Virus record (IMG/VR): IMGVR_UViG_3300045855_000012
Location: 1-52,603 of that record
Origin: a virus
Strand: one strand, 5' to 3'
DNA length: 52,603 bases
The notes beneath the pieces were generated by a model. It worked only from the letters and a program-made list of their open reading frames with translations. It did not search any database and had not been told where the DNA came from. Position numbers and translations under genes: made by a program. This document shows, in pieces, positions 3,205 to 52,440 of this stretch (its first letter is position 1; every line of letters begins with the position of its first letter).

Positions 3205-3568
3205 GCATTTTGTGCATATTTCTTTCTTCTCTACGTTTTAAACTCATGGGATTGTTTTCTCCACTGATCCTACCACGTAAAGATTTATGTTTCATGTTTT
3301 CTGCATGAGTTCCTAGAGATAAATGATCTGGATTTATGCAACAGGGATTGTCACAAGAATGAAGTACATGCATCCCTTCTGGGATAGCACCCTTGAATAC
3401 TGAGTAAGCTAGTGTATGAGCAGTATGGTTCTTACCTTCAAAATGAATACGACCATATCCACAGCCATCTTTACTTCCTGCATATTCCCAACAGTTATTT
3501 CTTGAAAATATAAAACGTTCCTGTAACTTTTCTTTTATCGATATTCCTCGCCGATATGGTAGTCTCAT
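3197..3568 (-). CDS. HNH homing endonuclease, zinc-finger loop type
   Basis: A 123-aa protein with the signature of phage HNH_3-type homing endonucleases: NCWEYAGSKDGCGYGRI, then HTLAYSVFKGAIPEG, HVLHSCDNPCCINPDHLSLGT and the tail HAENMKHKSLRGR. Catalytic His residues lie in the HVLHSCDN...NPDHL stretch. Its ATG overlaps the stop of the polymerase C-terminal fragment (ATGA), placing a homing gene directly at the 3' end of the polymerase, a typical site. Together with the HNH gene at 4270-4737 it brackets that polymerase fragment. Confidence 0.88.
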   Translation of the reverse strand: MRLPYRRGISIKEKLQERFIFSRNNCWEYAGSKDGCGYGRIHFEGKNHTAHTLAYSVFKGAIPEGMHVLHSCDNPCCINPDHLSLGTHAENMKHKSLRGRISGENNPMSLKRREERNMHKMLA

Positions 3569-4257
3569 TTAAGTTTCTCCATCATTTTCATGTTAGGGCC
3601 ATATTTAGATTCACAAGCCATTGGACACTTCCATTCATATCCGAACATAGCCTTGATGTTCATCGGCAGATCGGCAAATACACTATCAAATATACCAGCC
3701 AACTGAGGAAGGTAAGCGACATGAGTGTCGACAACGATAGAATCGTGTACAGTAGAAATGAAGTCACAGGGTATTCCAGCTTTCTTAATACGCTTGTATG
3801 CAGAGATACGAGCAATGGTCATAACATCAGCACCAGTTCCCTGCACAGGGAGATTGACCAGTTGGTTCAAGGGCAGTTTTAATTCCCCCTTGTAGTCCCT
3901 TGCCATGTCCAAGTGCCAAGAACGTCCTAGCGGCCCTGTAATGTCCTTTCCTGAGGATACTAGAGCCATCCACTCCTTATGCTTCTTGTCTAAGGAGGCA
4001 TACTTCTTGTAGAACTTTTCATTCAATGCATCCCAGAACTTCGCATCACTGCTAACATGCATAAAATCAGGATCATTAGCAAAAGCCCATCCACTCCCAC
4101 GGAAGATTGTACGAAAAAGAAAAATCTTAGCGATGAGTCGTGAAGGAAGGTCAAAAGCGTGTTGATTGTTTGCATGGGTGTCTTCACCTTTAATGATTTC
4201 GTTGATACCTACTTGGTCATTGGATAGCTCTAATGCTACCCGCCATTCAAGCTGCAT
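3565..4257 (-). CDS. DNA polymerase family A, C-terminal fragment (palm/fingers)
   Basis: A 230-aa open frame beginning MQLEWRVALE. It carries motif B of the fingers (RLIAKIFLFRTIFRGSG) and motif C of the palm (STVHDSIVVD). It starts inside motif A: the catalytic aspartate that should precede QLEWR is encoded just upstream as CDASQ but in a different frame. As written, this fragment therefore lacks one of the two essential palm aspartates. No ribosome site precedes its ATG. It is the 3' half of a polymerase interrupted by the genes at 4270-4943. Activity would need splicing, frameshifting or bypass, or else the gene is broken in this assembly. Confidence 0.8.
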   Translation of the reverse strand: MQLEWRVALELSNDQVGINEIIKGEDTHANNQHAFDLPSRLIAKIFLFRTIFRGSGWAFANDPDFMHVSSDAKFWDALNEKFYKKYASLDKKHKEWMALVSSGKDITGPLGRSWHLDMARDYKGELKLPLNQLVNLPVQGTGADVMTIARISAYKRIKKAGIPCDFISTVHDSIVVDTHVAYLPQLAGIFDSVFADLPMNIKAMFGYEWKCPMACESKYGPNMKMMEKLK

Positions 4258-4747: not shown

Positions 4748-4943
4748 GAGCATCTTTAGCTCGTAACAATGCAGCTACTGGTCGTTGATCTAGTCGATGG
4801 ATTTGATCTTGAATCTCCTTGAAGTGTCCGGGGTAATTATCTCGAAAGTCTGACAAGAGTTTACGACAACCTGAAGTCTCCATAGCAGAGGCGAGGTCAG
4901 TGAGAACATCGTTGTATTGTAGTTGTTGTAGTTCTTTAGTCAT
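4737..4943 (-). CDS. Small protein between polymerase halves, 68 aa
   Basis: A gene beginning MTKELQQLQYNDVL and ending RAKDAPTV. Its ATG overlaps the stop of the polymerase N-terminal fragment (ATGACTAA), and its stop overlaps the HNH start (TGATG). It is helical and charged with no recognised motif. It may be a passenger of the insertion that broke the polymerase gene, or a resident gene. No clear ribosome site is seen, so translation is probably coupled to the gene before it. Confidence 0.6.
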   Translation of the reverse strand: MTKELQQLQYNDVLTDLASAMETSGCRKLLSDFRDNYPGHFKEIQDQIHRLDQRPVAALLRAKDAPTV

Positions 4944-6063
4944 TGTATTTTGAGATGAAGATATCTTGCAAGTCAGAGGCAAAGTTCTGAAGGTTAGGTT
5001 TAGATGAACTCAACCGTCCAGAGATTGCAGTAGTCTGATTGAATTGTCCATGCAGTACATTAGGTTCCCAATTCATTTGTTTACGAAGTTTAACTAAGCC
5101 ATTGTAGTAGGTTCCATTTAGTTTCTCTAGCTTACTGAGATGCAAGATTTTATCCAGCACACCCTTCTTACCCTTGAGCTTGCGTAAGGTTCCTTCATCT
5201 GTTGCATAGTTACCTTCCTTCGCCATCTCAGAGCCTTTTAAAGGGGCATACAAGCGGGGCAATTGATGTTCTATTACAATGTTCTTGTACTTGGGTTCGT
5301 TAGCCCTAGCACCCGTTTTGAAGTAACCAACAAACTCCTTACCATCCTCTTTAACAAGTCCACCATAAAGAAAGGCAGACAGGTGATCGTTAGACCCAAA
5401 ATTAATAGGCACATTAGGATAGAAGGCTTTGAGTTCTGCCTTAAGGGATTCAATCTCACTGTCTAGTTCCTTTGATCGTGTTGTACACAATTCTTCGTCA
5501 AACGGTAATCCGTTTTGCTCCATTTCCATCAAGATCATTAAGTCCTCACACTGTATGCGACACAACTTAATCTCTGCGGGGGTCATCAGTTTGATCTGAC
5601 TATCGTAACAAAGACGTGTAAGATGAGCATCGAAGGCAGCATAATCGCTAAGTATCTCCCAAGGTATCTTGTCAGTGTCAATTCCTTTAGACCAGAAATC
5701 TTCCTTGACAACATCTCGTTTTGTCGGATGACCATATTTAATACACGTTTCATTTAGGCTGGGAAATCTGTTAGTTTGCCTTGAGAGTATGAACTCCGCA
5801 ATTTGAACGTCCCAAATTTTCTTACCTTGAAAAGAAATTCCGTGTCGAGTAAGCCAGTGGGCATCGAACTTAAAATTAAACCCAAGAATAAGATCAGACC
5901 AAGAGATGAGATTAAGTAACTTAGTAGGAGTTCTATTTGTCCATTGTACTGCTCCGCAGTCATCGTCGCAATGATGAGAGTAGCATATGAGGCGATTAGC
6001 AGAGTCGTAGGGATTTCCCTTGTTTGATATGGTGGTTTCAACATCTAAGGATAGTAAGTTCAT
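4936..6063 (-). CDS. DNA polymerase family A, N-terminal fragment (3'-5' exonuclease + thumb)
   Basis: A 375-aa fragment holding a complete proofreading exonuclease: Exo I LLSLDVETTI at the N-terminus, Exo II GFNFKFDAHW near residue 65 and Exo III YAAFDAHLTRLCYD near residue 148. A thumb region follows and then the conserved TAISGRLSSSKPNLQNF block that precedes motif A. The frame ends at FISKYND, exactly where motif A should follow. The C-terminal half is at 3565-4257. The fragment could work as an exonuclease alone, but replication would need both halves. Its start overlaps the end of the 66-aa gene upstream. Confidence 0.88.
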   Translation of the reverse strand: MNLLSLDVETTISNKGNPYDSANRLICYSHHCDDDCGAVQWTNRTPTKLLNLISWSDLILGFNFKFDAHWLTRHGISFQGKKIWDVQIAEFILSRQTNRFPSLNETCIKYGHPTKRDVVKEDFWSKGIDTDKIPWEILSDYAAFDAHLTRLCYDSQIKLMTPAEIKLCRIQCEDLMILMEMEQNGLPFDEELCTTRSKELDSEIESLKAELKAFYPNVPINFGSNDHLSAFLYGGLVKEDGKEFVGYFKTGARANEPKYKNIVIEHQLPRLYAPLKGSEMAKEGNYATDEGTLRKLKGKKGVLDKILHLSKLEKLNGTYYNGLVKLRKQMNWEPNVLHGQFNQTTAISGRLSSSKPNLQNFASDLQDIFISKYND

Positions 6064-9232: not shown

Positions 9233-9917
9233 TTTCTTCTTCCTTTTGGTTAATTTGTTCAGCAGTCATATTCTCACACCACGCCATTACACCACAATTA
9301 TGCACTGTAGTGCCACTATAGTTGTCCAACTCACTGTTGTAACCTGCACTATAGTACGTCCAGTACTTCTGGAACTCCTCTGGTACATCAAACTTCCAGC
9401 TCTTAGCAAGAGTAAAGCCACGGTCATAGATCGCACGGTCTGCTTGAGCGTGTTTGCTAGTCAAAGCATCCTCAAAATTCTTGAACTTCTTGTCACCATT
9501 CGAGATACGGATGATGTAAGACACCAGAGAGATGAGATATGTCTGGTTGAAGTAGTAACGTGGGACGAACATCAGGATGTTACCATCCACAACCTCCATT
9601 GTCAAGGGGAAGTCAGGCTTTTCAGCATTAATACAACATGCAATATTGTGCATAAACACATCAATGTCAGTGACATGGTACAAGCGTAGCCACACACCAT
9701 CGTCATTTAGCTTCATGTCATGGTTGTTAAGACCGTAAGCTATGACATGTTTACCATGATAACGTGCTACCACATCATTCAGGTAATCCTTACACATGAA
9801 CCGTCCTGTCTGTGGCAGGAATGTATCACCATCACGGTAGTACACTTGCCAACGCAGCGAGTTAGACTGAGGTGCTTCGCTGTAATGATACTGTGGGTCA
9901 GCTTCAAACTTATACAT
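9222..9917 (-). CDS. Unknown protein at end of amidoligase cluster, 231 aa
   Basis: A soluble protein beginning MYKFEADPQYHYSEAP, aromatic-rich, with a central VDGNILMFVPRYYF segment. I do not recognise the family. The start is ATG at 9915-9917, overlapping the stop of the ATP-grasp gene; the frame extends to 10133 but only inside that gene. Coupling to the ATP-grasp gene suggests a partner or substrate-handling role in the same pathway. Confidence 0.7.
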   Translation of the reverse strand: MYKFEADPQYHYSEAPQSNSLRWQVYYRDGDTFLPQTGRFMCKDYLNDVVARYHGKHVIAYGLNNHDMKLNDDGVWLRLYHVTDIDVFMHNIACCINAEKPDFPLTMEVVDGNILMFVPRYYFNQTYLISLVSYIIRISNGDKKFKNFEDALTSKHAQADRAIYDRGFTLAKSWKFDVPEEFQKYWTYYSAGYNSELDNYSGTTVHNCGVMAWCENMTAEQINQKEEENAL

Positions 9918-10605
9918 TTTGGGTGATTCCTTGGACGTATTTTTCAATGTTGCTACCAGTGATGCCGGGCGCACTGTTAACTTCAATGATGAAAAGGTCG
10001 TCGTTCCTCTCATTATATCCAATATCGACGCCACGGAAGTCCGACGTGCTAACTTTTGCCGCTGCAAGAGCAAGTTCACGTAGTCCGGCTGGCTCGTTCT
10101 CCACCTGTTGACAGAATATGTAGCCATTTGCAAGGTTCCTTACTTTAGTATCACGTTGATCGGTCCAGCCTGTCTTCTTACGCTTCTCCACCACAGACAC
10201 CACAGTGTCCTTGAATACATGCACACGAAACTCACGTTTCTTCTTCTTGTACATTGTGTACACAGGACAGGGCTGGAAATCTTCCATAGTTTCCATGATG
10301 ACAATGCCCTTACCGCAACTGCTGTTCAGGTACTTACGACCAAACACTGTCTTACCACTAGCAATCCACGCTTGGGCCATCTCAGGTGACTGTGTGAACT
10401 CCAAGGATGATAGACCTTGTGACGCGAACCAAACATATTGAGCAATCTTATTCACAGAATGCCCATAGCGGTACTGAATACGGCGTGTAGACAGCTTTGT
10501 AGTGCGAAGCACCCTATGCCCTAGCCGTTGCGTTAACGCACCAGCAAGGAGCTTTAGAGAGGCAGAGAACCGTGTAGATTCAGTGCAGAGCAAGGACAGT
10601 TTCAT
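9910..10605 (-). CDS. ATP-grasp carboxylate-amine ligase
   Basis: A 231-aa protein with an ATP-grasp core. GRKYLNSSCGKGIVIME is the flexible nucleotide-covering loop, KKKREFRVHVF is a central strand, DFRGVDIGYNERNDDLF carries the metal-site acidic residues and FIIEVNSAPGITGS is the terminal catalytic strand, with the E-x-N typical of the fold. Such enzymes activate a carboxylate as acyl phosphate and join it to an amine. It overlaps the amidotransferase gene upstream. It is short for the family, so the N-terminal domain is reduced. It is the third ligase of the cluster. Confidence 0.82.
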   Translation of the reverse strand: MKLSLLCTESTRFSASLKLLAGALTQRLGHRVLRTTKLSTRRIQYRYGHSVNKIAQYVWFASQGLSSLEFTQSPEMAQAWIASGKTVFGRKYLNSSCGKGIVIMETMEDFQPCPVYTMYKKKKREFRVHVFKDTVVSVVEKRKKTGWTDQRDTKVRNLANGYIFCQQVENEPAGLRELALAAAKVSTSDFRGVDIGYNERNDDLFIIEVNSAPGITGSNIEKYVQGITQNV

Positions 10606-11746
10606 GCTTAACTCGCTTAGATGGGGTTACTTTCTTTAGATCACCTAGCCGGATTGTAACCATGCCAGTAGCTTTGTCATATTCCATGTCCGTTACACGG
10701 CCATAATACAGACAATTCAAGAAGGATTCCTTAGGATGCAATTCATTCAGATCAAACTCTGCTTGAACCACATGGTCAAAGGTAAACTCTTCAATGTCTC
10801 CCATGAGGAGAACATCAGATGCACCTTGTGCTATTGTTTTAGGAAAATCTTTCTCGATGAAGTCATCAGCCCAGAAGTCTGTTAACGCACCGAACCAACG
10901 CTTTTTTGCTGCTTTGAAAGCGTTCTTGCTCATCCGATTAGTCCCACCACGTTTGCCCTGTCCAGCCACCGTGGAGGCGGTCTTCCAATTGCCAGTTACC
11001 GTATTGGTAACTGGAATAGCTTTTTTTGGCATGTAACTGACAACCTCCACTTTGTTAGTGTCAAGATCAATCTTGTACAGAGTGTTCTCTTTCACAACAA
11101 CAGGCTCGTGGCCTTTAAGTGTTACACCATTACGCCCAAGTATCCAGTACAACAAGCCCATCTCAGATGCCCAGAAGAACCCTTCAGGAGTGTCTACAAA
11201 GCTCATAGGACGCTGATCGTTGCGGAGTAGATAGACCTGATGGTTATTCTGACTATACGCAGCAATGGCGTATGCACCCTTGACCTTACCGATAGCTTCC
11301 TCAAAGGCAGCCAAGTCCCAATCACCATTGAGTACTGGCTCAAGGTGAATGGCAAGAGCTTCACTATCCACCACAGTATCAGCTAACTCCTTGTGATTGG
11401 TTAACGTACCATTATGTACCATAGCAAACTCACCCTTGACGACGAATGGGTGAGCATTCTCGTCAGAGCCAATGCCAATAGTCTTCTTACGATTGTGTCC
11501 AATCAAAGCCTTACCGCGAGGGTACATAGCCTTACCAAGGTCAGACATTTGAATCTGATCTAGTACATAAGGAGCAGCATAGCCTTCCTTCATGATGCCG
11601 AAACCAGCAGTGTTCTCCACCATAATTACACCAGTGGAGTCATCTCCACGCAGCGTATCACAGAACAACATTTGATAGAAAGACTCCTCAGTCTTCTTAT
11701 CAAACCCAAAGTTACCACGAGGTACAACCCCAACAATTCCACACAT
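10580..11746 (-). CDS. Class II glutamine amidotransferase (Ntn hydrolase)
   Basis: A 388-aa protein. It begins MCGIVGVVP with the catalytic Cys2 exposed after Met removal, followed by DTLRGDDSTGV, ALIGHNRKKT, HPFVVKGEFAMVHNGTL and VDSEALAIHL. These are the glutaminase-domain motifs of the GlmS/PurF family. The sugar-isomerase domains of GlmS are absent; the last 150 residues are unlike any domain I recognise. The enzyme should release ammonia from glutamine for a neighbouring ligase. The start overlaps the amidoligase stop as TAATG. Confidence 0.88.
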   Translation of the reverse strand: MCGIVGVVPRGNFGFDKKTEESFYQMLFCDTLRGDDSTGVIMVENTAGFGIMKEGYAAPYVLDQIQMSDLGKAMYPRGKALIGHNRKKTIGIGSDENAHPFVVKGEFAMVHNGTLTNHKELADTVVDSEALAIHLEPVLNGDWDLAAFEEAIGKVKGAYAIAAYSQNNHQVYLLRNDQRPMSFVDTPEGFFWASEMGLLYWILGRNGVTLKGHEPVVVKENTLYKIDLDTNKVEVVSYMPKKAIPVTNTVTGNWKTASTVAGQGKRGGTNRMSKNAFKAAKKRWFGALTDFWADDFIEKDFPKTIAQGASDVLLMGDIEEFTFDHVVQAEFDLNELHPKESFLNCLYYGRVTDMEYDKATGMVTIRLGDLKKVTPSKRVKHETVLALH

Positions 11747-12513
11747 TAGATCACCGCCAGTTTCAGGTCAAGGATTTGGTTGGTCATAAGACTGCGAACC
11801 AAGGTATAGTCATTGCTCAAACGAGAGCAGCCAAAAATCTTACCAAAGAGCATCTTGATGTTGTCCTCTTGTAAGAGGGTTGAATCAAGTGGAGCTTCCT
11901 TGGCAGTAGCCAACAAGTTACGGATGATGAGCAGCCATTCATCCATCAACACATCATCAGCATGACCATGCATATGACGGAACTCAATCGTACCCTGCTT
12001 GGTCAGGGGCTTGAGATTAAGTGCCGTGTACTTGTGCCAACGACTAATCATGTTGGATATACTACCACTATAAATACTAGGCAGATAAGTCTCTGTCAAG
12101 GGTGTGCAGTGAATGTTATCACGACGATCAGGAGCACACATCAAGAAGAAGGCTTCCTCAAACAAGGCATACAACCATACAGTATCCCGTACTTCCTTGA
12201 GCTTCATGTTAGCGCAGTTAGCATGGACATGAATGGATGTACGCTGAGAGAACGGGTCGAATGTGCCTGTGCTGATAGTCCCATGCAACTTCTTGAACAT
12301 AGTAGAAGCAACAGGGATGGACACAGGATTACTGATGTACTCGTGTCCGTTGTTACGCAACGAACCATCAGTAGTTACGCGCCAGCCTAATTGCTCTGCT
12401 CGTCCATGATCGGTGATGGCCTCAATCTCACACTCGATGCCAACGAATTGCCCAGCGGTAGGATCACGCAGTGCATCAATGTGTATCTCACAACCCAATT
12501 CATCCCAAATCAT
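11746..12513 (-). CDS. GS-like amidoligase (Amidoligase_2 type)
   Basis: A 255-aa protein with the glutamine-synthetase-like amidoligase pattern. FVGIECEIEAI carries the metal-binding acidic residues, followed by VTTDGSLRNNGHEYIS, then TSIHVHANCAN and GTIEFRHMHGH. In this family the enzyme uses ATP to form an amide between a carboxylate and an amine, often on peptides. The start overlaps the stop of the 198-aa gene upstream (ATGA). It is one of two ligases of this fold in the operon; the other is at 13107-13862. Confidence 0.82.
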   Translation of the reverse strand: MIWDELGCEIHIDALRDPTAGQFVGIECEIEAITDHGRAEQLGWRVTTDGSLRNNGHEYISNPVSIPVASTMFKKLHGTISTGTFDPFSQRTSIHVHANCANMKLKEVRDTVWLYALFEEAFFLMCAPDRRDNIHCTPLTETYLPSIYSGSISNMISRWHKYTALNLKPLTKQGTIEFRHMHGHADDVLMDEWLLIIRNLLATAKEAPLDSTLLQEDNIKMLFGKIFGCSRLSNDYTLVRSLMTNQILDLKLAVI

Positions 12514-13106
12514 ACTAACACCTCATAATGTTCATTGTGGTCAACCATGTGCTGCATAATTTCCGGCAGGAAAATCTTATGCATCATACTGATACGCTTG
12601 GTAGTGTAATCAAACATAGCAATAGTTCGATTGTCAATCAGAATTTTACCTGACCGTAGATAAGACATACGTGGACTCAACGCAATGGCCTTGGTCTTAG
12701 CCTTGGTGTTGAACGCATTGCTGAACGATGAGTAGCTAGGCTTACCGACAAAAGCCTTGAGAGCAGGGAATCCAACATCAACTGCTGTACCTGTAGCTAC
12801 ATTGGTAATCATCGTGTTGTCAGAGCACAGACCACGACGATACTGCCGAGCAGGAATACGCTGCAACAGATAGACAGAATCTTTCCACTGAAACGTTGCC
12901 TTGTGTGGCAGGATGAAGTTCACAGTGTAAGGAGCAGCATCACTGAGATACATCTCAAACGCTGTGTTGTCCTCGTCAACACCACTGATACCATCAGGAC
13001 GTACCTGATGAATCATGAACAGCTTGTCACCAAACTCAGAGAACTTTACATAAGTACCCTCATAGTACTTCTGTATGTCTCGCCAATTGCTTGACGTAAA
13101 ATCCAT
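12510..13106 (-). CDS. Unknown protein inside amidoligase cluster, 198 aa
   Basis: A soluble protein (MDFTSSNWRDIQKYYEGTYV...) placed between the two amidoligases and directly coupled to both. It has no catalytic motif that I recognise. The N-terminal part looks like a small beta-barrel (GTYVKFSEFGDKLFMIHQV). Its fixed place between two ligase genes suggests a substrate, carrier or binding subunit. That is inference from context only. Confidence 0.72.
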   Translation of the reverse strand: MDFTSSNWRDIQKYYEGTYVKFSEFGDKLFMIHQVRPDGISGVDEDNTAFEMYLSDAAPYTVNFILPHKATFQWKDSVYLLQRIPARQYRRGLCSDNTMITNVATGTAVDVGFPALKAFVGKPSYSSFSNAFNTKAKTKAIALSPRMSYLRSGKILIDNRTIAMFDYTTKRISMMHKIFLPEIMQHMVDHNEHYEVLV

Positions 13107-13862
13107 TTAGATCACCTCCAAGTTAAACTCATCGACCAACGAACGAGCAACAGATTTGTTGTTGTTGTTGATGGCTTCAAGAATGGACTCAGCATACACA
13201 GACACATCCCACGTACCAGCAGTAGCCTCAGCACGAGTGGTGTTACGGAACACCCAATCAATCAAGCGATCTTCAAAAATCCAGAAGTTCGACAGAGTAC
13301 GGTACTCCACACCATAACTCTTTACTCGGTGTGCTCCGGCTTTTCCATACAGTTGTTTACGATCTTCACCACTATCCATAAGTACACTAGCCACGCCAAG
13401 AAACAAATCACAGTTGCGTACCACATCGGTGGCATCTTTGGCAGTTTCGATGTGAATATGGCCGCCAGCACTACGCATAAAAGGATGCGGAGGCTGTGGT
13501 TTCTGGTTAGTTTTGTTAGTCCAAGCATCATAGTCAGGCTCACATCCAAATATATGGGCAGCAGGGTGCTGCATTTGATCTTCAGGGAAGACAATACAAG
13601 ACAACTTACTGAATGACAAGTTTGGCAGATACTCCAGACTCTTAGCCATCACAGCGTTGATAGACCCTATGAGTTCTTCACTGGTGGATGCTGGGGGAAT
13701 GCCATACTCAAGGGATACGTTGTCCTCTTGCAGTGTATAGCCAGCAGGCATGTCAGGAATCTGCAAAGGATTCCACTTATCAGCCATGATGTAACCAATG
13801 GCGCTGATGGGTTTACCATTAACGTCAACCAAAAAAGTCTCGGGGTCGCTACCAATACGCAT
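13107..13862 (-). CDS. Phage COOH-NH2 ligase type 2 (phiEco32-like)
   Basis: A 251-aa protein matching the type 2 phage COOH-NH2 ligase pattern. RIGSDPETFLVD lies at the N-terminus, then GYTLQEDNVSLEYGIPPAS, SAGGHIHIETA and GVEYRTLSNFW. These correspond to the acidic and histidine metal or ATP sites of the glutamine-synthetase-like fold. The family was defined from phages such as phiEco32 and is predicted to join amino acids or peptides through amide bonds. AGGAG precedes the ATG. It stands directly after the class I amidotransferase gene. Confidence 0.85.
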   Translation of the reverse strand: MRIGSDPETFLVDVNGKPISAIGYIMADKWNPLQIPDMPAGYTLQEDNVSLEYGIPPASTSEELIGSINAVMAKSLEYLPNLSFSKLSCIVFPEDQMQHPAAHIFGCEPDYDAWTNKTNQKPQPPHPFMRSAGGHIHIETAKDATDVVRNCDLFLGVASVLMDSGEDRKQLYGKAGAHRVKSYGVEYRTLSNFWIFEDRLIDWVFRNTTRAEATAGTWDVSVYAESILEAINNNNKSVARSLVDEFNLEVI

Positions 13863-13875
13863 AATATTCTCCTAG

Positions 13876-14538
13876 TTAATAAGCAATGTCAACCAACTCA
13901 AGGATGTATTCACGAATCAAATCGTTGCAATACAAGGCAAACTCATGGTCATTGTTAACCCATTCAGGATGACCCTGAATAGCAAGACCACGAATATCAG
14001 GGAACCAACATACCTCAACCTCAGGCTTACCTGTCATGTCCACCTCATTATCTGTACCATCCAAGTAAGTATCAGATAGGTGATGTGTAGCAGTAGCCAG
14101 CACCTTACAGTTCACATCATATGGGTACATCAACTGATGGTGTGCTGATGTAGTGGTGATGAGTTCACCATGATGTGTAAGCATAGGATGTTGTCCCATG
14201 TTGTGTCCATGCATGTGCTGGATAAGCCAGCCACCAGCAGCACAGCACATCATCTGAGCACCACGGCACACACCAATCATCGGTATCTTGTGTGCCTTGC
14301 AATACTTCATCGCTCCCCATTCAAATAAGTCTCGACCAGATGGACCATTTCCTGCTTGACTGCGACGACTAACACTATGAGAATACAGAGCAGGATGAAT
14401 GTCTGTACCACCCCAGAAGACAACAGCATCGACACCATCAAAGCCCACCTTAGATACGTCTTGTTGCAACGCAAACACATCGTCGAATGGCGACGCACTA
14501 TGACCAACAGGGCAATAGCCCAACGTGAGTTTCTTCAT
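13876..14538 (-). CDS. Class I glutamine amidotransferase-like / gamma-glutamyl hydrolase (peptidase C26)
   Basis: A 220-aa protein of the triad amidotransferase fold. FWGGTDIHPALY lies near residue 42, the nucleophile elbow GVCRGAQMM has Cys91, and IQGHPEW supplies His190 and Glu192. This is closest to PuuD-like gamma-glutamyl hydrolases, which cut gamma-glutamyl amides, although it could supply ammonia instead. GGGAG precedes the ATG. As the opposite activity to the ligases beside it, it may trim or recycle gamma-glutamyl products. Confidence 0.85.
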   Translation of the reverse strand: MKKLTLGYCPVGHSASPFDDVFALQQDVSKVGFDGVDAVVFWGGTDIHPALYSHSVSRRSQAGNGPSGRDLFEWGAMKYCKAHKIPMIGVCRGAQMMCCAAGGWLIQHMHGHNMGQHPMLTHHGELITTTSAHHQLMYPYDVNCKVLATATHHLSDTYLDGTDNEVDMTGKPEVEVCWFPDIRGLAIQGHPEWVNNDHEFALYCNDLIREYILELVDIAY

Positions 14539-17082: not shown

Positions 17083-17931
17083 TTAGACAAGAGCAGTGTC
17101 ATTGTGTGTAAGGTTAGCATGGCGTGCATGTTTAGTTGACAAGTATGCCTTGTCTGTAATTGCTTGGGCCTGTTCAGCAATAGACGGAGCAGGAGCACGT
17201 ACCATAGCTGGCTTACTTGCTTCCGTTATCTCAACATTGCCGATAGCATCCGTCAATGCTTCAAGGGCTTGGGCATGTTGCAACTCATAAGTTGAAAGCA
17301 TAGATTTTAGTGCCGCTATTGCAGTTGCAAAATCACCCATTTTGTCAGCATCTGCCGTGGTCAATTCAGCCGCTATCTTGACAAGTTTACCTGCTATGCC
17401 TTCTTGTGTATGTGCTGGCTTCTCCACATTTTCAAGCAGCTTTTTGATAGCTGCAACAGTCAAGAGTTGACCATTCTCACACAATGGCAACTTGCCGCAG
17501 TATGCAAAATAACGGGTAACGAACGTCTTAGCTACAGCATAGCTTCCTGCTGCTTTCAAGTCTCCCGCCCACAGTTGCCACTGTTTTTCGATTGTCGCTG
17601 GCTTTGCGCCCTTGTCAGCATGGTATGCCGTAAACACTGGCTTGAAATACTCCACTTCTAGTTCACGAATAGCACTCTTAAGCTCATTTGGAATCGCTTC
17701 ATTTACTGGCGTAACACCTTTGTAACCATCTAGCCGTGGACTGCTAAGAATGTCATTCAGTGCGCTGACTGCGCCTTCTGAAGCTGACTTGTCAGCCTTG
17801 AAAGCCTTGTCAAGTGCACGCAATGCATCTACGGGTGACATAGATTCAAATGTGCTGACAGATTCAGCTTTACCCTTAGAATCTACAAATACAACTGCCG
17901 TAGCAGAAAACGAAATATCAAATTTAGACAT
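17083..17931 (-). CDS. Unknown early protein, 282 aa
   Basis: A soluble, mostly helical Ala/Lys-rich protein (MSKFDISFSATAVVFVDSKG...). It is the second gene from the leftward promoters, a place usually held by host-takeover genes. GGAG stands upstream of the ATG at 17929-17931; a longer frame to 17991 is not supported. I see no catalytic or DNA-binding motif. It has its own terminator and is bracketed by three copies of a palindromic motif, so it is probably regulated or expressed separately from the rest of the operon. Confidence 0.72.
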   Translation of the reverse strand: MSKFDISFSATAVVFVDSKGKAESVSTFESMSPVDALRALDKAFKADKSASEGAVSALNDILSSPRLDGYKGVTPVNEAIPNELKSAIRELEVEYFKPVFTAYHADKGAKPATIEKQWQLWAGDLKAAGSYAVAKTFVTRYFAYCGKLPLCENGQLLTVAAIKKLLENVEKPAHTQEGIAGKLVKIAAELTTADADKMGDFATAIAALKSMLSTYELQHAQALEALTDAIGNVEITEASKPAMVRAPAPSIAEQAQAITDKAYLSTKHARHANLTHNDTALV

Positions 17932-18018
17932 GATAAAAACTCCAATGAGTGTAGTCACATTGCACACTATGCACAAGCATACTAACCCCACAAGATCACT
18001 TAGCAGTGAGCTTGTAAA

Positions 18019-18061: not shown

Positions 18062-18202
18062 TTAATTAATCTTCTGATAATCCACGGTGAACGGAACATC
18101 GTTAGCAAGCAAGGCAGTAATCCACTTTAGGGCATCCCCTTGTGTCGTGTACTTTTGCACACGAGTACGTCCGAAAAACTCACATGTGATAACGATGGTC
18201 AT
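18062..18202 (-). CDS. Small early protein, 46 aa
   Basis: The first gene of the leftward block: MTIVITCEFFGRTRVQKYTT and onward, ending DYQKIN. A GGGGGAAG ribosome site precedes the ATG. It looks like a compact beta/alpha protein. It lies about 67 bases downstream of the nearest sigma-54-like promoter. The function is unknown. Confidence 0.6.
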   Translation of the reverse strand: MTIVITCEFFGRTRVQKYTTQGDALKWITALLANDVPFTVDYQKIN

Positions 18203-18268
18203 ATCTTCCCCCTTAGTGGTCAACTCTAACTTTTAAACCTTGTGACGCGATGGTCACCCTAACTACTA

Positions 18269-18285
18269 TGCAAGCGCCGTGCCAA
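18269..18285 (-). promoter_or_regulatory. Sigma-54 (-24/-12) promoter-like sequence, leftward 1
   Basis: On the minus strand TTGGCACGGCGCTTGCA matches the RpoN consensus TGGCAC-N5-TTGCW fully, with GG and GC 12 bases apart. It would start a transcript a few dozen bases before the 46-aa gene. No good sigma-70 hexamers overlap it. Confidence 0.75.
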
Positions 18286-18332
18286 CTATCTCAAACTAAC
18301 CAAAAAGGCACCAACTCGCACATATAGACATA

Positions 18333-18349
18333 AGCAAACCCCATGCCAA
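18333..18349 (-). promoter_or_regulatory. Sigma-54 promoter-like sequence, leftward 2
   Basis: On the minus strand TTGGCATGGGGTTTGCT matches TGGCAY-N5-TTGCW with correct GG to GC spacing. It is tandem with leftward 1, 64 bases further upstream. Confidence 0.65.
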
Positions 18350-18427
18350 CTATGTGTTTTGTCCTATATGCGACGCTTTTACGTCGCTTTTACAGTGATT
18401 TACCCCTATTTCCCTACACTTGACAAC

Positions 18428-18444
18428 ATGGCATAGGACTTGCT
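18428..18444 (+). promoter_or_regulatory. Sigma-54 promoter-like sequence, rightward 1
   Basis: ATGGCATAGGACTTGCT has TGGCAT-N5-TTGCT with correct spacing. A TTGACA (18420-18425) lies just upstream but no good sigma-70 -10 follows, so the sigma-54 reading is preferred. Confidence 0.6.
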
Positions 18445-18447
18445 AAG

Positions 18448-18503
18448 TGTGACATAAATGTTAGAACTATGACATAAAAGGCACAATGTGACACATCTTG
18501 TCA
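18448..18503. promoter_or_regulatory. Phased TGACA repeats, candidate activator site
   Basis: TGTGACATAAA (18448-18458), TATGACATAAA (18468-18478) and TGTGACACATC (18487-18497) repeat at 20- and 19-base steps, about two helical turns. The last is part of the inverted repeat TGACA-N5-TGTCA (18489-18503). They lie about 100-155 bases upstream of leftward promoter 2, the usual distance of an enhancer for a sigma-54 activator. Confidence 0.5.
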
Positions 18504-18518
18504 GGCACAATACTTGCT
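18502..18518 (+). promoter_or_regulatory. Sigma-54 promoter-like sequence, rightward 2
   Basis: CAGGCACAATACTTGCT has GGCAC-N5-TTGCT with correct GG to GC spacing but A instead of T before GG. It directly adjoins the TGACA repeats. Confidence 0.55.
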
Positions 18519-18876
18519 AGTGTGTTTATATGCTGCGCTTAGGCTTGCATAAGCACTATGCTGCATGTAAGCATGATGTATGCACTTTAATGCACATGGG
18601 TTGGATACTCCATGGGGTATAGCTCGCTCAAATGGGGTGGGCCTGTCTACCTAGTCGCCTAACTCATTGATTTATTATAATAGGACACACATCAAATTAT
18701 AACCCTATTACACACACAGAGGGGGGTGGGGGGAAAACTTGGTGGAGCAGCATTTGACGTAATGCACTCTGTTACATTTTTTATGATTTTTTTATACTGG
18801 GGTGTTAGCCAATTGATTTAAAGGGTCTAGGAGCTCTTGAAAGAGGTTGTGGCTACATTGGTATACCCTACTGCGA

Positions 18877-18900
18877 TTAAACGCCGTACAGAGCGTTTAA
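18877..18900. repeat. Inverted repeat TTAAACGC / GCGTTTAA
   Basis: Perfect 8-base arms around an 8-base loop in the non-coding control region. There is no T-run, so it is not a simple terminator. It could be an operator or a structured RNA. Confidence 0.6.
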
Positions 18901-19015
18901 GAGCCTTCTAGGGCTATTGCTTAATGCGCTCGACCCTATGGGCCTCGCGTAACAGCTCACAACAAGGAGTGGGTAATACGCAGTGTAATACGCATACATA
19001 GAATACAACTTACTT

Positions 19016-19159: not shown

Positions 19160-19189
19160 TTGACTTGTCAAGAGTATTAATGATATAAT
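19160..19189 (+). promoter_or_regulatory. Sigma-70 promoter for rightward block
   Basis: TTGACT (19160-19165), an 18-base spacer and TATAAT (19184-19189). It is the last promoter-like sequence before the first plus-strand gene at 19234. Confidence 0.72.
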
Positions 19190-19499: not shown

Positions 19500-20060
19500 G
19501 TGGCTTATAAACCTGTAACAAAAGATCGTTCTACCTTAGCTGAGACAAACTTGCGATGGTCGGAGAAGCAACGAATGGAAGCTGTGAACAGCTACCTCCT
19601 ACTCGGTAACCTCGCGCTCACAGCGCGTATACTGAACATCCCAGAGATTACTCTTCGTGTTTGGAAAGCTCAAACATGGTGGAAAGATGCTGTTCTGGAG
19701 ATTAAGAGTTCTGAGAAGGTTCAACTGTCCACTCGAATTCGTAAGCTTGTAGACGGAGCCTTGGCTGTAGTCGAAGATCGTTTGACCAACGGAGACTTTC
19801 AGTTTGACCAGAAAACTGGTGTAGTTGTACGCAAGCCGGTTAACATGAAAGATGCTCACAAGGTTGCCATTGACATGGCAGACAAGCATGAACAACTTGA
19901 ACGCTCTGAACGTCCTGAACAGACAGAGGAACATGTAGAGGATAAACTCCTGAAGCTTGCTGAGAAGTTTGCTGACATGGCTACAAAGAAGATTGAACAA
20001 AACAATAATGCATCCCGTACTGTTGACGTTGAGGATGTAGAAGATAACACAGCTCGGTAG
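19500..20060 (+). CDS. Terminase small subunit
   Basis: A 186-aa protein. The helix-turn-helix-like N-terminal region includes YLLLGNLALTARILNIPEIT followed by LRVWKAQTWW, and a coiled helical segment and acidic tail follow. This fits small terminases that recognise the packaging site. The start is GTG at 19500. Its place just before the HNH and large terminase genes supports the call. Its stop codon lies inside the tRNA gene at 20051-20125. Confidence 0.78.
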   Translation: MAYKPVTKDRSTLAETNLRWSEKQRMEAVNSYLLLGNLALTARILNIPEITLRVWKAQTWWKDAVLEIKSSEKVQLSTRIRKLVDGALAVVEDRLTNGDFQFDQKTGVVVRKPVNMKDAHKVAIDMADKHEQLERSERPEQTEEHVEDKLLKLAEKFADMATKKIEQNNNASRTVDVEDVEDNTAR

Positions 20061-20125
20061 TGTAATGGGCAGCACAGCAGCCTCCAAATCTGCTTGTAGA
20101 GGTTCGAGTCCTTTCCGGGTTGCCA
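20051..20125 (+). tRNA. tRNA-Trp (anticodon CCA)
   Basis: A cloverleaf can be drawn. The acceptor arm AGCTCGG pairs with CCGGGTT (two G-U pairs). The T arm is AGAGG-TTCGAGT-CCTTT. The anticodon loop CTCCAAA has CCA at 20084-20086, and the 3' CCA is encoded. The anticodon stem has four good pairs and a mismatch next to the loop, so the call is not perfect. The first ten bases encode the end of the small terminase, an unusual overlap. Confidence 0.78.
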
Positions 20126-47689: not shown

Positions 47690-47876
47690 TTTTAAAGTCC
47701 TCTTTATTTCCAATTAGTCTTGTGTAGTGCATTGTCTGATCTACAGAGATAGCACCACAACCACAAGTTACATACTGCCCTTCGTAGGCAGAGAAGATTC
47801 CATTACCACACTTGTTACAGTAGTAGGCTTTTGGAATAAACTCTGCCTTCTTAGCTGCTACTGGCACTACGCTCAT
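47682..47876 (-). CDS. Zinc-ribbon protein, 64 aa
   Basis: AYYCNKCGNGIFSAYEGQ and VTCGCGAISV form a short zinc ribbon with four Cys. The start overlaps the end of the LAGLIDADG gene. This kind of protein is frequent among small phage genes; the function is unknown. Confidence 0.7.
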   Translation of the reverse strand: MSVVPVAAKKAEFIPKAYYCNKCGNGIFSAYEGQYVTCGCGAISVDQTMHYTRLIGNKEDFKND

Positions 47877-48189
47877 TTTTATTGTCCTCTACCATCTTAT
47901 AGACAGCTAACGCTTGGTCTTTCTTCTGGTCACATAAAAAAGGCCATAGCTTTTCTAGAATGATTTTAACATCGTCTTTCCGTTGGCATGTCCATTGATA
48001 CAGCCCAGATCGTTGATCGTGGGCATATATTTTTCCGTGTCCAACAGCTTCTTGAAATCGTTCTAAAGGCTTGATGTTTTTTTGTGATACAGACATTCGT
48101 GGACCAATCCACTTATCTTTTTTAAGATAGGAAGTAGTTCCCTCTCCATCAAAGAATCCTGCACACCATGCTAGCTCTGTGTCAGACAC
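47851..48189 (-). CDS. LAGLIDADG-type homing endonuclease
   Basis: A protein of about 112 aa with a single LAGLIDADG helix (LAWCAGFFDGEGTTSYLKKD) and the following RMSVSQKNIKPLERF and GSGL segments, so it probably acts as a homodimer. A GGGAGG ribosome site inside the reductase 3' end points to a GTG start near 48189. The frame reaches 48210. It sits right at the 3' end of the ribonucleotide reductase gene, a typical homing site. Confidence 0.82.
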   Translation of the reverse strand: MSDTELAWCAGFFDGEGTTSYLKKDKWIGPRMSVSQKNIKPLERFQEAVGHGKIYAHDQRSGLYQWTCQRKDDVKIILEKLWPFLCDQKKDQALAVYKMVEDNKNERSASSS

Positions 48190-49834
48190 CACAACTACCT
48201 CCCTTACCACTCAATTCGCATATGTCATTTTCCTCGTACACAACATCTTTGTGTTTAAGGGCCTCTTCATAATCACAAGCGGTCAGGGGCTGACCTCCTC
48301 TACTTGCATTTGGGTAACATGTAAATCCACGTAGTCGCGGAGCATACTTTGCAAGTGTAGCTGCAAATGCTCCAACTTCTTTTTCGTTATTTCTAGCTGT
48401 TCCCCATGATGGAAGGTTGATTGTGCTAGAGATGGACATGTCAACGTAATCTTGTATATCGGCTTGGAACTTGATTCGCTTTTCATAGTCTTCACTTAGG
48501 TCGAGGGCTGATTGGATTGATTCGGGTTTGACTCCGAACTTGTTGATAAGCAAATCGGCGGTTCCATCCACAACATATTGGAACTTCCATTTAGTACCTT
48601 CCGTGAGGAAACGTCTCTTATAAGCAACAGCGAAGAGAGGTTCAATTCCAGTAGTAGTGCCAGCAAGGATTCCGATACTGCCTGTCGGGGCAATTGCTCG
48701 ATAAGCAACAGGGCGGCTGATAAAGAAGCGATCGCAGTGCTCGTCTGCACTTCGTTTGGATTCTGATTCATATACCTTTAACCATTCATGTAGTTCTGGA
48801 GTTACTTCGTATCCTTGTCCACGCTTGAGGAGCCATTCATGGATTCCCATAAGTCCAAGACCAAGTCGTCGATTTTTTTCACGAACTTTGTATACTTTGT
48901 CATAAGGGAGGTCAGCTCGTAATGTTCCACAGACGAGGAATTTACTAGCCAATGCAACCACATTTTTGAATTCGTCCAAAGAAGAAATATTTCCCAAATT
49001 AATAGAACCGAGATTGCAAACGTCAGAGTCATCTTCAGACGTAACCTCTGTACAAGCATTCCTAAGTGTTTCATTCTGTTTATCTCCAAAGTTAAAGCTA
49101 AAGCCCGGCTCTGCTGTCTCCATTGCCTGACGTACATTCTTAAGGAAGACAGGGTTGTTTTCCAATCCACCTACTAGAGCAGCATCATCGTAGTTGACAG
49201 AGATGTTCGTCATGTCCAGAGGACCGGGGAAGTTAAAGTCCTTGAGCTTCTGTTCCTTTACAACATCTGACCAATTCTTGATTCCAAGGAACTGATTAAT
49301 ATCTTCATGTCGCCAGTTAAGCGATGCATAAATTGCAGATCGTCGTGATCCGCCTTGCATAACATTTCGTCCAATTTCGTTGATTGCCGACATAAGCGGG
49401 ATAGGTCCAGATGCAGTACCACCAGTGCGGCTAAGGGCTTTTCCGGACGCACGAAGTCGTGAGTAGTCAATTCCAATTCCGCCTCCAGTCATTAGACAGG
49501 ACATTGCACGCCATGTTACGTTGCTCCATTCTTCTCGTGTGTCTTCTTCTGCCCTTAGTAGATAGCAGTTATTGTAAGCCTTGTATGGCCGTCCTGCGTA
49601 ATAAAGGTAGCGTCCTCCGGGGAGAAACCGCATTGCCTTAATATGTTCTGTAAGTTCGCGTCGATCAGTATCGGACATAAGGATTGGGACGGTCCCTTGT
49701 CTACTACCGCAGACGTCCTCCACCAAGCGTTCTGAGAGTTTGGCCCATGTGTCGGCTGCTCCCTGTGCATATTTATATCTAAAGACTGTTTCGGCAAAGT
49801 GATTCCTAAACTCGTTTTTTCCATGACTAATCAT
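48182..49834 (-). CDS. nrdJ: Class II (adenosylcobalamin-dependent) ribonucleotide reductase
   Basis: A 550-aa reductase. MRFLPGGRYLYYAGRPYKAY and NNCYLLRAEED begin the catalytic barrel. MSCLMTGGGIGIDYSRLRAS, then GPIPLMSAINEIGRNVMQGG, follow. SDVCNLGSINLGN holds the active-site Cys/Asn region, IAPTGSIGILAGTTTGIEPL is a conserved loop, and the C-terminal GKGGSCGV probably carries the re-reducing Cys. It makes deoxynucleotides from ribonucleotides and needs host vitamin B12. The start ATG (49832-49834) overlaps the stop of the HNH gene. Homing genes flank both ends. Confidence 0.85.
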   Translation of the reverse strand: MISHGKNEFRNHFAETVFRYKYAQGAADTWAKLSERLVEDVCGSRQGTVPILMSDTDRRELTEHIKAMRFLPGGRYLYYAGRPYKAYNNCYLLRAEEDTREEWSNVTWRAMSCLMTGGGIGIDYSRLRASGKALSRTGGTASGPIPLMSAINEIGRNVMQGGSRRSAIYASLNWRHEDINQFLGIKNWSDVVKEQKLKDFNFPGPLDMTNISVNYDDAALVGGLENNPVFLKNVRQAMETAEPGFSFNFGDKQNETLRNACTEVTSEDDSDVCNLGSINLGNISSLDEFKNVVALASKFLVCGTLRADLPYDKVYKVREKNRRLGLGLMGIHEWLLKRGQGYEVTPELHEWLKVYESESKRSADEHCDRFFISRPVAYRAIAPTGSIGILAGTTTGIEPLFAVAYKRRFLTEGTKWKFQYVVDGTADLLINKFGVKPESIQSALDLSEDYEKRIKFQADIQDYVDMSISSTINLPSWGTARNNEKEVGAFAATLAKYAPRLRGFTCYPNASRGGQPLTACDYEEALKHKDVVYEENDICELSGKGGSCGV

Positions 49835-50234
49835 TCTTATTATGTTCCATTCTATGACAATTTGCACAAAGTAAAATACACTTTGAAACTTCATTAAGAA
49901 AACGTTCTTTACTTACCAGCATATTTTCACCGATAGTAAACTCTTTTTCTTCTGGATTTATATGGTGAAAATCATAAACACAAGTATCAAATACACCTTG
50001 GCATTTACTGCATTTTCCACCTAGTAAATCAATAGCTTCTAAAAGACGATTTTTACGTTTGTTCCTATTTTTAGTGGAGACTAACTCCCTATTATTTTTA
50101 CGATACTCTTTTTGATATTCTAGTAACTCTTCTTTTTTACTTTCATATCTAAGACGTGTCTGTTCGTTAGCTTTATCTTTATTTTTTAAATAGTACTCAC
50201 GTCTATAAAGTTGTTTAGGAGTTAAGTCATTCAC
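49827..50234 (-). CDS. HNH homing endonuclease upstream of reductase
   Basis: A 135-aa protein. The N-terminal basic module TPKQLYRREYYLKNKDKANE matches that of the gene at 4270-4737. The C-terminal HNH domain has GKCSKCQGVF, YDFHHINPEEKEF and LLCANCHRMEH with two Cys pairs. The start is GTG, overlapping the previous stop (GTGA). It is placed so that its stop overlaps the reductase start. AT-rich base composition compared with the neighbouring genes suggests recent arrival. Confidence 0.85.
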   Translation of the reverse strand: MNDLTPKQLYRREYYLKNKDKANEQTRLRYESKKEELLEYQKEYRKNNRELVSTKNRNKRKNRLLEAIDLLGGKCSKCQGVFDTCVYDFHHINPEEKEFTIGENMLVSKERFLNEVSKCILLCANCHRMEHNKND

Positions 50235-50416
50235 AATTTACCTATTTTTATTGGTTGTTTAACTATACCGGCTGCTAACTCAGCCTGTCTGCGCCTCTTG
50301 TCCTCGGCTACCATACAAGGCTCACACTTACCCTTCCGCATCCACGTCTTGTGAATAGCGCACCTCTGAGGAAGAGGGACTGGGATAAGTTTCGGTTTCT
50401 CGTTCGTATCGGTCAA
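50231..50416 (-). CDS. Zinc-finger-like small protein, 61 aa
   Basis: RCAIHKTWMRKGKCEPC gives a C-x2-H ... C-x2-C arrangement, followed by basic helices. GAGGAAG precedes a TTG start. The first 89 bases overlap the 3' part of the 52-aa gene in another frame, a long overlap for this genome. The function is unknown. Confidence 0.62.
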   Translation of the reverse strand: MTDTNEKPKLIPVPLPQRCAIHKTWMRKGKCEPCMVAEDKRRRQAELAAGIVKQPIKIGKL

Positions 50417-50486
50417 TTTCTTCCTCTGCTTCTATTTCTTGTACCTTACGGACAAGGTAGGTTTTCTTATAATGCTGCTCACTCAC
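50328..50486 (-). CDS. Small acidic protein, 52 aa
   Basis: MSEQHYKKTYLVRKVQEIEA followed by acidic and Ser-rich sequence. The start is GTG at 50484-50486, overlapping the stop of the 49-aa gene (GTGAGTGA). The last half overlaps the zinc protein gene. A longer frame up to 50540 would overlap the gene upstream entirely and is not preferred. Confidence 0.55.
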   Translation of the reverse strand: MSEQHYKKTYLVRKVQEIEAEEEIDRYERETETYPSPSSSEVRYSQDVDAEG

Positions 50487-50628
50487 AGGCTGCCATGAGT
50501 CGTGTGTAGTTTTCTTCAATTTCGTCACCAAGTACTTCAAGTAGATCAGCTAGGTCATAGCCAATAATGTCAAGGAAATCAGTTACATCTAGTTTAGCAG
50601 CGATGAGTAGTTTTAGTTCATCGTTCAC
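50479..50628 (-). CDS. Small acidic protein, 49 aa
   Basis: VNDELKLLIAAKLDVTDFLD and onward, acidic and helical, ending RLMAACE. The start is GTG at 50626-50628, overlapping the end of the DUF3310 gene. The function is unknown. Confidence 0.6.
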   Translation of the reverse strand: MNDELKLLIAAKLDVTDFLDIIGYDLADLLEVLGDEIEENYTRLMAACE

Positions 50629-50821
50629 GTTTCTCAATCTCTCGGTTGATGTAGAAGATTGCTTTACGCATATCCTCAAGAGCATTGTTCTTCAAGTCAG
50701 CCCTCCAGATATACTTGAGAGCGTTGCCTAGATTGAATCCCATGTGCTCTGTAATCTGAATACACTCCACACCAGATGGATGTGAAGTATAGTGCTTAGG
50801 ATGGTTAACCACGTCATGCAT
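50618..50821 (-). CDS. DUF3310 (SaV-like) protein, complete copy
   Basis: A 67-aa protein with VVNHPKHYTSHPSGVE, GNALKYIWRADLKNNA and EDMRKAIFYINREIEK, the full DUF3310 pattern. It is the complete version of the fragment at 1-158. It overlaps the metallophosphatase gene upstream by 8 bases. Confidence 0.88.
   Translation of the reverse strand: MHDVVNHPKHYTSHPSGVECIQITEHMGFNLGNALKYIWRADLKNNALEDMRKAIFYINREIEKRER
50664..50773. repeat. 110-bp exact repeat of the window start
   Basis: Identical to positions 1-110. The first difference is at 111 (G) versus 50774 (A). From there to 52476 the sequence is a diverged version of 111-1632. Confidence 0.95.
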
Positions 50822-51575
50822 AACGTTTCCTTATGTAATCAAGGGACACTGACATCAAATCAAACTCTCCATCTTGTACGTCATGCAACATCAAGAATCC
50901 ACGCCAGTGCTTGTTACCTTGACTAGACATGTAATCCTCGTTGTGTTCATAACAGGAACCAGCAATTACGGATGTGAGTCGAGTACCATCCGCCTTGTAT
51001 GCCGTAGCAATCTGCAAGCCTTGTTGATGGCCTTGGATACAAGACATGTGCTTTTTGGTAAGACATGCTGAAGCAGTAGTGACAGGACGGCCCATAAGAC
51101 CAGTGGTAAAGTAATGACTGTAAGCAACACCATCAATGACAATGACATCAAGGAAAGGAACCACCCTCCAGCCGTATGCTTCATATCCCAAAGCACCCAC
51201 TGAAAGGACTCCTTCCAATTTTGGATCGTCATTGATTGCACGATTGATTCGATTCTCATGGTTACCCAATGTCAGGATTAGTTCAGGATGATATTGTTTC
51301 TCTTTGTTACGCTTGGCCTTGGCATTGAACTCCCATAGAGGGGTCATCAAGGCATCCATAGCGTCTTTGGAAGCCTCAATGTCCTTGATGTAACGTCTAC
51401 CCTCAAAACTTTTCTTTCCTTGGTCATAGGAGCTTAGAGAGGGCATATCAGCCCAATCTCCGATACAAACCCACTTATCTGGCTTCTTTTCTACAAGGTA
51501 CTTACCGATGTTTGTTAGGTACTGGAAGTCTGTCCCTTCCTTTGCCTGAACATCGGGTATCACCGCATGTTTCAA
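50814..51575 (-). CDS. Calcineurin-like metallophosphatase, version 2
   Basis: A 253-aa version of the gene at 151-912 with the same metal blocks (PDVQAKEG, IGDWADMPS, LGNHENRIN, IQGHQQG). It starts with TTG after AGGAG. Differences from version 1 cluster around residues 15-45 and 130-150, and long stretches are identical, as expected for strain variants. Confidence 0.85.
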   Translation of the reverse strand: MKHAVIPDVQAKEGTDFQYLTNIGKYLVEKKPDKWVCIGDWADMPSLSSYDQGKKSFEGRRYIKDIEASKDAMDALMTPLWEFNAKAKRNKEKQYHPELILTLGNHENRINRAINDDPKLEGVLSVGALGYEAYGWRVVPFLDVIVIDGVAYSHYFTTGLMGRPVTTASACLTKKHMSCIQGHQQGLQIATAYKADGTRLTSVIAGSCYEHNEDYMSSQGNKHWRGFLMLHDVQDGEFDLMSVSLDYIRKRYA

Positions 51576-51742
51576 TGTAAGTTCTCCTGTTCATCTTTGT
51601 CAGCTACAACTGCTTGGATTACTCCCCTAGACATAAGGGAAAGAAGCCCCATTTGTAAAACAATGTCTAGTTCAGCACCAGATATTTCACCAGCGAATTT
51701 AACAGTACCCTCTGGGGTTTCAATAGATTTACTTATTTGCAT
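51572..51742 (-). CDS. Conserved small phage protein, 56 aa, version 2
   Basis: A version of the gene at 908-1078 with about nine substitutions and equal length. It overlaps the HNH gene and the metallophosphatase start. The function is unknown. Confidence 0.75.
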   Translation of the reverse strand: MQISKSIETPEGTVKFAGEISGAELDIVLQMGLLSLMSRGVIQAVVADKDEQENLH

Positions 51743-52122
51743 TTTTTTTTATCTTGTTTTTCTTGATTTGTTTTGAGCAAGTGACAGGGCTTGCAGATGG
51801 CTTGGAGGTTACTAGCCTCACAGAATAATCGATCTATGAAGATATCCCACGTCTGGAAGCCCTTTGTCGGATCAACCACAGGTTTAATGTGGTCCACTTC
51901 CATATCTTTCTGCGTGAACTCATTGCCACATAACTCACACCGGAAGTGTTGGGCAAGCCTACCTGTTTTCTGATTAGTCTTTTTCTCTGTCTTGCTTGCG
52001 TTGAGAGTATCATACTTGGGTTGCCATCGTCTAGCACCTGCCCTAAGAGTTGATGTAATGAAGCTGTTGAAGCGGCCTTCTGTCCAGTTACCGCCATTGA
52101 ATATTTTCCGTTTAGCCCCCAT
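51733..52122 (-). CDS. HNH endonuclease, version 2
   Basis: A 129-aa version of the gene at 1056-1454, with CELCGNEF, MEVDHIKPVV, ASNLQAICKPCHLLKTN. The ATG at 52120-52122 matches the start of version 1, which uses GTG; the frame reaches 52152 but only inside the 43-aa gene. Confidence 0.85.
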   Translation of the reverse strand: MGAKRKIFNGGNWTEGRFNSFITSTLRAGARRWQPKYDTLNASKTEKKTNQKTGRLAQHFRCELCGNEFTQKDMEVDHIKPVVDPTKGFQTWDIFIDRLFCEASNLQAICKPCHLLKTNQEKQDKKKCK

Positions 52123-52243
52123 GCATCTTGTTCTTCTTACGCTTGGCAGCAATGTCTGCTAGGCGTTGGGAGGCATTACGCTTCTGTTGTTGGTCACGAA
52201 GCCGTGAGGCTTCTTTATCTTGTTCAATATCTTTGTAGTACAT
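52112..52243 (-). CDS. Small basic protein, 43 aa, version 2
   Basis: A version of the gene at 1447-1578 (MYYKDIEQDKEASRLRDQQQ...), same length with about eleven changes. Here its ATG overlaps the stop of the 65-aa gene instead of the exonuclease stop. Confidence 0.7.
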   Translation of the reverse strand: MYYKDIEQDKEASRLRDQQQKRNASQRLADIAAKRKKNKMHGG

Positions 52244-52440
52244 TATTTAACTAATTTTTCTATTATTGTTTGGATACGTTCAAATTCTGCTGTGGCAGCT
52301 AGATGTTGTTCATAGAGAGATATAGGAATGGAAACTCGTTTATCGTACTCGGATTTGTATTTTGGATTATCCTTAAATAAACAGTAAATAGGATACCATT
52401 CATCTTCAGAATAAATAACTGTTATGAGGGGAACTTCCAT
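52243..52440 (-). CDS. Strain-specific small protein, 65 aa
   Basis: MEVPLITVIYSEDEWYPIYC and onward, ending EKLVK. It is present only in version 2, between the exonuclease and the 43-aa gene. In version 1 these two genes touch directly. Its start ATG lies inside the last codons of the exonuclease gene. The function is unknown. Confidence 0.65.
   Translation of the reverse strand: MEVPLITVIYSEDEWYPIYCLFKDNPKYKSEYDKRVSIPISLYEQHLAATAEFERIQTIIEKLVK

Follow-up and report, generated by a model that had tools for sequence, protein, structure and literature searches.

The stretch of DNA analyzed here, hereafter the window, is an entire virus record of 52.6 kb. Among its leftward genes are those for DNA polymerase A, a DnaB helicase and clustered ATP-grasp, glutamine-amidotransferase, amidoligase and COOH-NH2-ligase enzymes; the genes for terminase, portal, a GroES-like protein and capsid point rightward. 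Positions 1-1592 and 50664-52257 are direct near-repeats, each carrying a metallophosphoesterase gene and an HNH gene. Because the ends of the window overlap in this way by 1.6 kb at 83.5% identity, the window probably represents a circular genome, nearly complete at about 50.7 kb; the assembly looks like one circle built through two strain variants. The ribonucleotide reductase large-subunit gene (47851-50540) is interrupted by homing endonuclease-like frames, suggesting introns or inteins, and the DNA polymerase A gene is also split in two (3565-4257 and 4936-6063). A tRNA-Trp gene (anticodon CCA) at 20051-20125 separates the small terminase gene from the next frame.

The nearest named isolate was Alcaligenes phage vB_Af_QDWS535 (OK172329; 50.1 kb), whose terminase, portal and capsid are 57, 55 and 64% identical to those of the window; a DNA-level search with the window among named phages found no relatives. 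A terminase 74% identical to that of the window was present in a bacterial bin placed in the order of Polynucleobacter, Burkholderiales, and on the strength of this bin the host likely belongs to the same order. RpoN was found in 39 of 41 sampled genomes of Burkholderiales.

Between the replication and packaging blocks lies a divergent region in which the initial annotation had described four sigma-54 promoter-like sequences, two on each strand. All four were present with GG and GC 12 bases apart, as described; the 17-base intervals given there hold each site plus one extra flanking base, and the exact sites are 16-mers. The leftward pair consists of the predicted sigma-54 promoters P1 (TGGCACGGCGCTTGCA; 18269-18284, minus strand) and P2 (TGGCATGGGGTTTGCT; 18333-18348, minus strand), which have ATAGTTGGCA in common, match the consensus at 12 of 12 positions and, from their positions, have predicted starts near 18258 and 18322 on the same strand. 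The annotation had them facing an early block, and they do point to the replication and metabolism genes. The rightward pair consists of the sigma-54-like site P3 (TGGCATAGGACTTGCT; 18429-18444, plus strand; 12/12), with a predicted start near 18455 from its position, and the weak sigma-54-like site P4 (AGGCACAATACTTGCT; 18503-18518, plus strand; 11/12). P1-P3 all fall inside 176 bp and P4 lies 58 bp beyond this cluster. All four sites have a purine at position 7, which the original pattern had left open, as do real sigma-54 promoters. The first frame after P1 is a small candidate ORF of 46 amino acids (18062-18202, minus strand) that has a ribosome-binding-like GGGGGA and gave no Pfam match. 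The first conserved leftward gene, gene A (17083-17952, minus strand), has homologs in six relatives at 38-46% identity, and its true start is probably an internal ATG near 17932.

The matrix scan with a shuffled control that had been proposed alongside the annotation was run with a PSSM derived from 23 intergenic RpoN sites of Salmonella (PMC3844500). P1-P4 were four of the top five matches in the window and lay within 250 bp: P1 had the best score (19.3, rank 1), in keeping with its description as a full RpoN consensus, followed by P2 (17.4, rank 2), P3 (14.5, rank 4) and P4 (13.0, rank 5), the site already singled out as weaker. Since the known Salmonella sites had a median score of 19.4 and a minimum of 15.1, P1 and P2 are strong sites within the range of proven ones, and P3 and P4, below the training minimum, are weaker. 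The 52.6 kb contained three perfect matches to TGGCAYR-N4-TTGCW, every one of them in the divergent region, against 0.025-0.075 expected for the window (Markov order 1 and 3). When spacer lengths from 0 to 11 were compared, no length other than 5 produced a cluster in the window or more than two matches, and those matches were loose and scattered. The outcome favored sigma-54 promoters over chance, and the same reading is backed by the spacing control and by conservation in relatives.

To look for relatives, 40 viral contigs were collected by their terminase, with the motif not used. Contigs L011 and L013, with L031 apparently the same virus, carried two perfect leftward sites ahead of their counterpart of gene A, the first leftward gene (46-50% protein identity to the window). 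L019, L038 and L032/L036 carried one near-perfect leftward site each. Over 39 contigs, the interval 1.3-2.6 kb before terminase held 8 perfect sites in 26 kb compared with 1 in 473 kb elsewhere, an enrichment of about 140-fold, and nothing comparable was seen at neighboring spacings over the same 39 contigs, so that the enrichment is specific to the sigma-54 spacing. When L011 and L013 are compared, the distal site has kept all of its -24 and -12 bases, and the spacer differs at 4 of 4 bases. The divergent regions of L006, L012 and QDWS535 lacked sigma-54 sites, and the feature is therefore patchy in the family. A query with gene A retrieved one further close relative, but its contig stops 60 bases short of the divergent region and therefore allowed no direct footprinting of the window's own sites; the conservation evidence is that of site position in relatives and of bases in related arrays, rather than of the bases of the window's own four sites. 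In the closest relatives of the window, the rightward pair was not found.

Across viral contigs, two tandem perfect sites occurred in at least 120 stretches, compared with 20 for a control with a one-base-longer spacer (N6). Among the matches listed, a simple ORF map placed 96 of 165 from the tandem pattern and 1 of 24 from the control between genes, the free position 7 was a purine in 117 of 123 distinct intergenic sites, and terminase or portal homologs were present at 33 of 74 tandem loci vs. none of 20 control loci. The arrays among these matches comprised two to nine sites, and the usual distance to terminase was 0.8-1.6 kb. One strand predominated in most arrays, in general the strand that runs towards the leftward operon. 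Representative array phages share the portal family of the window, phrog_1216. In aligned arrays, change affected 0.15% of the nine core bases, 29% of the spacer and 14% of the flanks; in a stricter set that allowed for the selection of loci, 1 of 639 core positions had changed vs. 12.5% of flanking positions, with pairs that are not independent of one another. As read from the sequences, these sites have a clear identity, are clustered, are conserved in relatives and, in related arrays, have been under purifying selection. The contig of a nearer relative (L172) held six perfect sites within 0.4 kb and none other in the 40 kb read. At L083:5936-6146 (also L076, L092 and L152), nine perfect sites on both strands lie within about 210 bp before a terminase gene; arrays of up to nine, with sites about 26-47 bp apart, are more crowded than ordinary promoters require.

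Sigma-70 promoters also serve the divergent region. A promoter of the form TTGACT-N18-TATAAT (19160-19189, plus strand; 11/12) lies directly before the packaging genes and has equivalents in L011, L013, L019, L038, L006, L012 and L042. In L011, L013, L019 and L038 a strong sigma-70 promoter additionally points leftward from the far end of the region; the window has a weak leftward one only, and QDWS535 has leftward sigma-70 promoters in place of sigma-54 sites. Given these sigma-70 promoters and the relatives without sigma-54 sites, the suggested dependence of the phage on RpoN is no more than a possibility, and because of the former sigma-54 more likely adds a conditional layer than carries transcription by itself. 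The proposal that the rightward pair faces the structural block stood as far as direction is concerned; these sites are nevertheless weaker than the leftward pair, lie about 0.7 kb before the first rightward gene with a sigma-70 promoter intervening, and are missing from the closest relatives. P3 and P4 are the less certain half of the finding.

The sigma-54 holoenzyme cannot open a promoter unaided and requires an AAA+ enhancer-binding protein. Among phage records that included the window, the RpoN domain (PF04552) was found in 0 of 17 and the activator domain (PF00158) in 0 of 13, and host controls were positive. Since neither domain was found in the window or its relatives, host proteins must supply both RpoN and the activator. 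Seventeen other array-bearing records gave one match to an RpoN or activator domain, in a 322-kb record.

Candidate activator sites differed among the viruses. Positions 18224-18720 of the window held no exact GCAC-N7-GTGC (NtrC) or TGTC-N8-GACA (NifA) box, and these zero counts rule out such a box as the window's activator site. The sole perfect inverted repeat with six-base arms in this interval, GCGACG-N6-CGTCGC (18370-18387), is a candidate activator site by its position between the divergent promoters. Five clustered GACA/TGTC half-sites (18422-18502) are tentative candidates as well; the 497 bp of the interval held nine TGTC/GACA sequences where 3.1 were expected (P 0.007). PilR was also considered as an activator, as GTCT elements and a NifA-like sequence are described as hallmarks of PilR sites (PMC6058289). 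In L011 and L013, three TGTC-N8-GACA inverted repeats lie upstream of the leftward promoters (expected 0.002-0.004), and L022 has three such repeats at its contig edge. The L011 and L013 repeats fit TGT-N10-ACA, the NifA-type rule. L019 has two NtrC-type GCAC-N7-GTGC boxes upstream of its leftward promoters (expected 0.008). Other activators with similar sites may bind the inverted repeats of the relatives. The combination of TGTC-N8-GACA and a sigma-54 site was found in 29 of 399 Burkholderiales genomes, in many cases before nifV, nifB or nifH as judged from translations read by eye. Upstream of other arrays, NtrC-like boxes were modestly enriched (16 of 65 loci with at least nine matches vs. 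about five expected from shuffles); NifA-like boxes were not enriched there, and a scan of the collection with strict boxes gave two matches. For the window, the link to host nitrogen status that the initial annotation had raised is at most a possibility, as no NtrC or NifA box was found there, though L019 carries NtrC-like boxes and L011, L013 and L022 carry NifA-like ones.

Together, these data make it quite likely that the divergent region of the window carries sigma-54 promoters, opened by host RpoN and a host activator, as a conditional layer of control. Host RNA polymerase with RpoN would bind the -24/-12 elements as a silent closed complex, which a host enhancer-binding protein, an AAA+ ATPase at upstream sites, would then open, so that the leftward operon (replication and glutamine-linked enzymes) would be switched on when the activator's signal is present. 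P1 and P2, in tandem, would be the main source of leftward transcripts. The 0.7-kb leader ahead of the packaging genes may receive some further transcription from P3/P4, and the sigma-70 promoters near 19.1-19.2 kb would provide activator-independent transcription. Transcription itself, the identity of the activator and the benefit to the phage are inferences.

Chance matches would not be surprising one at a time in an A+T-rich non-coding region, where a site scoring at least 18 arises about 0.25 times per shuffled genome, but the four sites are clustered and recur at the same place in relatives, and it is the clustering, not any single site, that exceeds chance. Because relatives keep sites at the same place, chance is very unlikely for P1 and P2, and as an account of the whole region it is hardly credible; P4 taken alone could be a chance match. 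It is also highly improbable that the motif is the site of another protein, such as an iteron-like element for phage replication or packaging, whose likeness to sigma-54 sites is coincidental. Such a role would suit the iteron-like look of the arrays and the location of the sites, which are non-coding and adjoin a conserved G-rich block, perhaps an origin or packaging site. However, the block also occurs in L006 and L012, both without sites, and the exact sigma-54 spacing and half-motifs, the purine at position 7, the strand bias and site scores equal to those of proven Salmonella sites all argue against a coincidence. The block, GAGGGGGGTGGGGGGAAAACTTGG, and the stretch that follows it (18700-18960) recur in the non-coding region of the relatives compared.

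RpoN-polymerase might instead bind the sites without using them as promoters, either forming a closed-complex roadblock or silencer of leftward sigma-70 transcription or serving as a sponge that titrates sigma-54. This would accommodate both the close packing of the arrays, with as many as nine sites, which goes beyond what promoter use requires, and the leftward sigma-70 promoter that runs through the region in four relatives. We nonetheless consider it unlikely, given that one strand dominates most arrays, usually towards the leftward operon, an orientation that a sponge would not need, and that activator-like inverted repeats lie upstream in several relatives. We conclude that the sites very probably work as sigma-54 promoters, with RpoN and an enhancer-binding protein both provided by the host. 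As many related environmental viruses have clusters of this kind at the same position, gene expression in these viruses is probably linked in part to the physiology of the infected cell.

Tailed phages are usually described as relying on host sigma-70, on a polymerase of their own or on phage-encoded sigma factors. No description of sigma-54 promoters in a lytic phage genome turned up in the open-access papers searched; in a Salmonella RpoN study, expression of two Fels-2 prophage operons differed between the wild type and an rpoN mutant (PMC3844500). The phage sites have the same -24/-12 elements and exact spacing as bacterial sigma-54 promoters (glnA/NtrC, nif/NifA), the upstream inverted repeats of NtrC or NifA type recur in the phage relatives, and the NifA-type layout of these relatives is also found before nif-like genes in Burkholderiales. 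Unlike the bacterial promoters, the phage sites lie in a control region in tandem and divergent groups, and no activator gene was found in the phage. The nearest idea in the papers searched is the control of phage genes by host CtrA, with the proposed "lytic deferment" (PMC9437464). In those phages of Alphaproteobacteria, a host physiological regulator likewise acts via sites concentrated in phage promoter regions, but CtrA is a response regulator with experimental support, whereas the present system would involve a sigma factor and an activator and is known from sequence alone.

A broader possibility, which we put forward tentatively and hold to be somewhat less probable than not, is that a broad, mostly uncultured phage assemblage (portal family phrog_1216) makes expression of its central operon conditional on host sigma-54, different relatives using different host activators (NifA-like, NtrC-like and others). 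If so, each phage would be tuned to one particular physiological state of its host cell, in a sigma-54 analog of the lytic deferment described for CtrA. Should the promoters work, infection across the whole assemblage would be wired to host nitrogen, pili, motility or stress circuits, which would change the prediction of productive infection in the environment.

QDWS535, although it has leftward sigma-70 promoters and no sigma-54 site in its divergent region, resembles the window in gene order, including the amidoligase/glutamine-amidotransferase cluster. In the window, this cluster (9910-14538), part of the leftward operon, encodes an ATP-grasp protein, two kinds of glutamine amidotransferase, an amidoligase and a phiEco32-like COOH-NH2 ligase; the position of these glutamine-linked enzymes downstream of sigma-54 promoters is suggestive.
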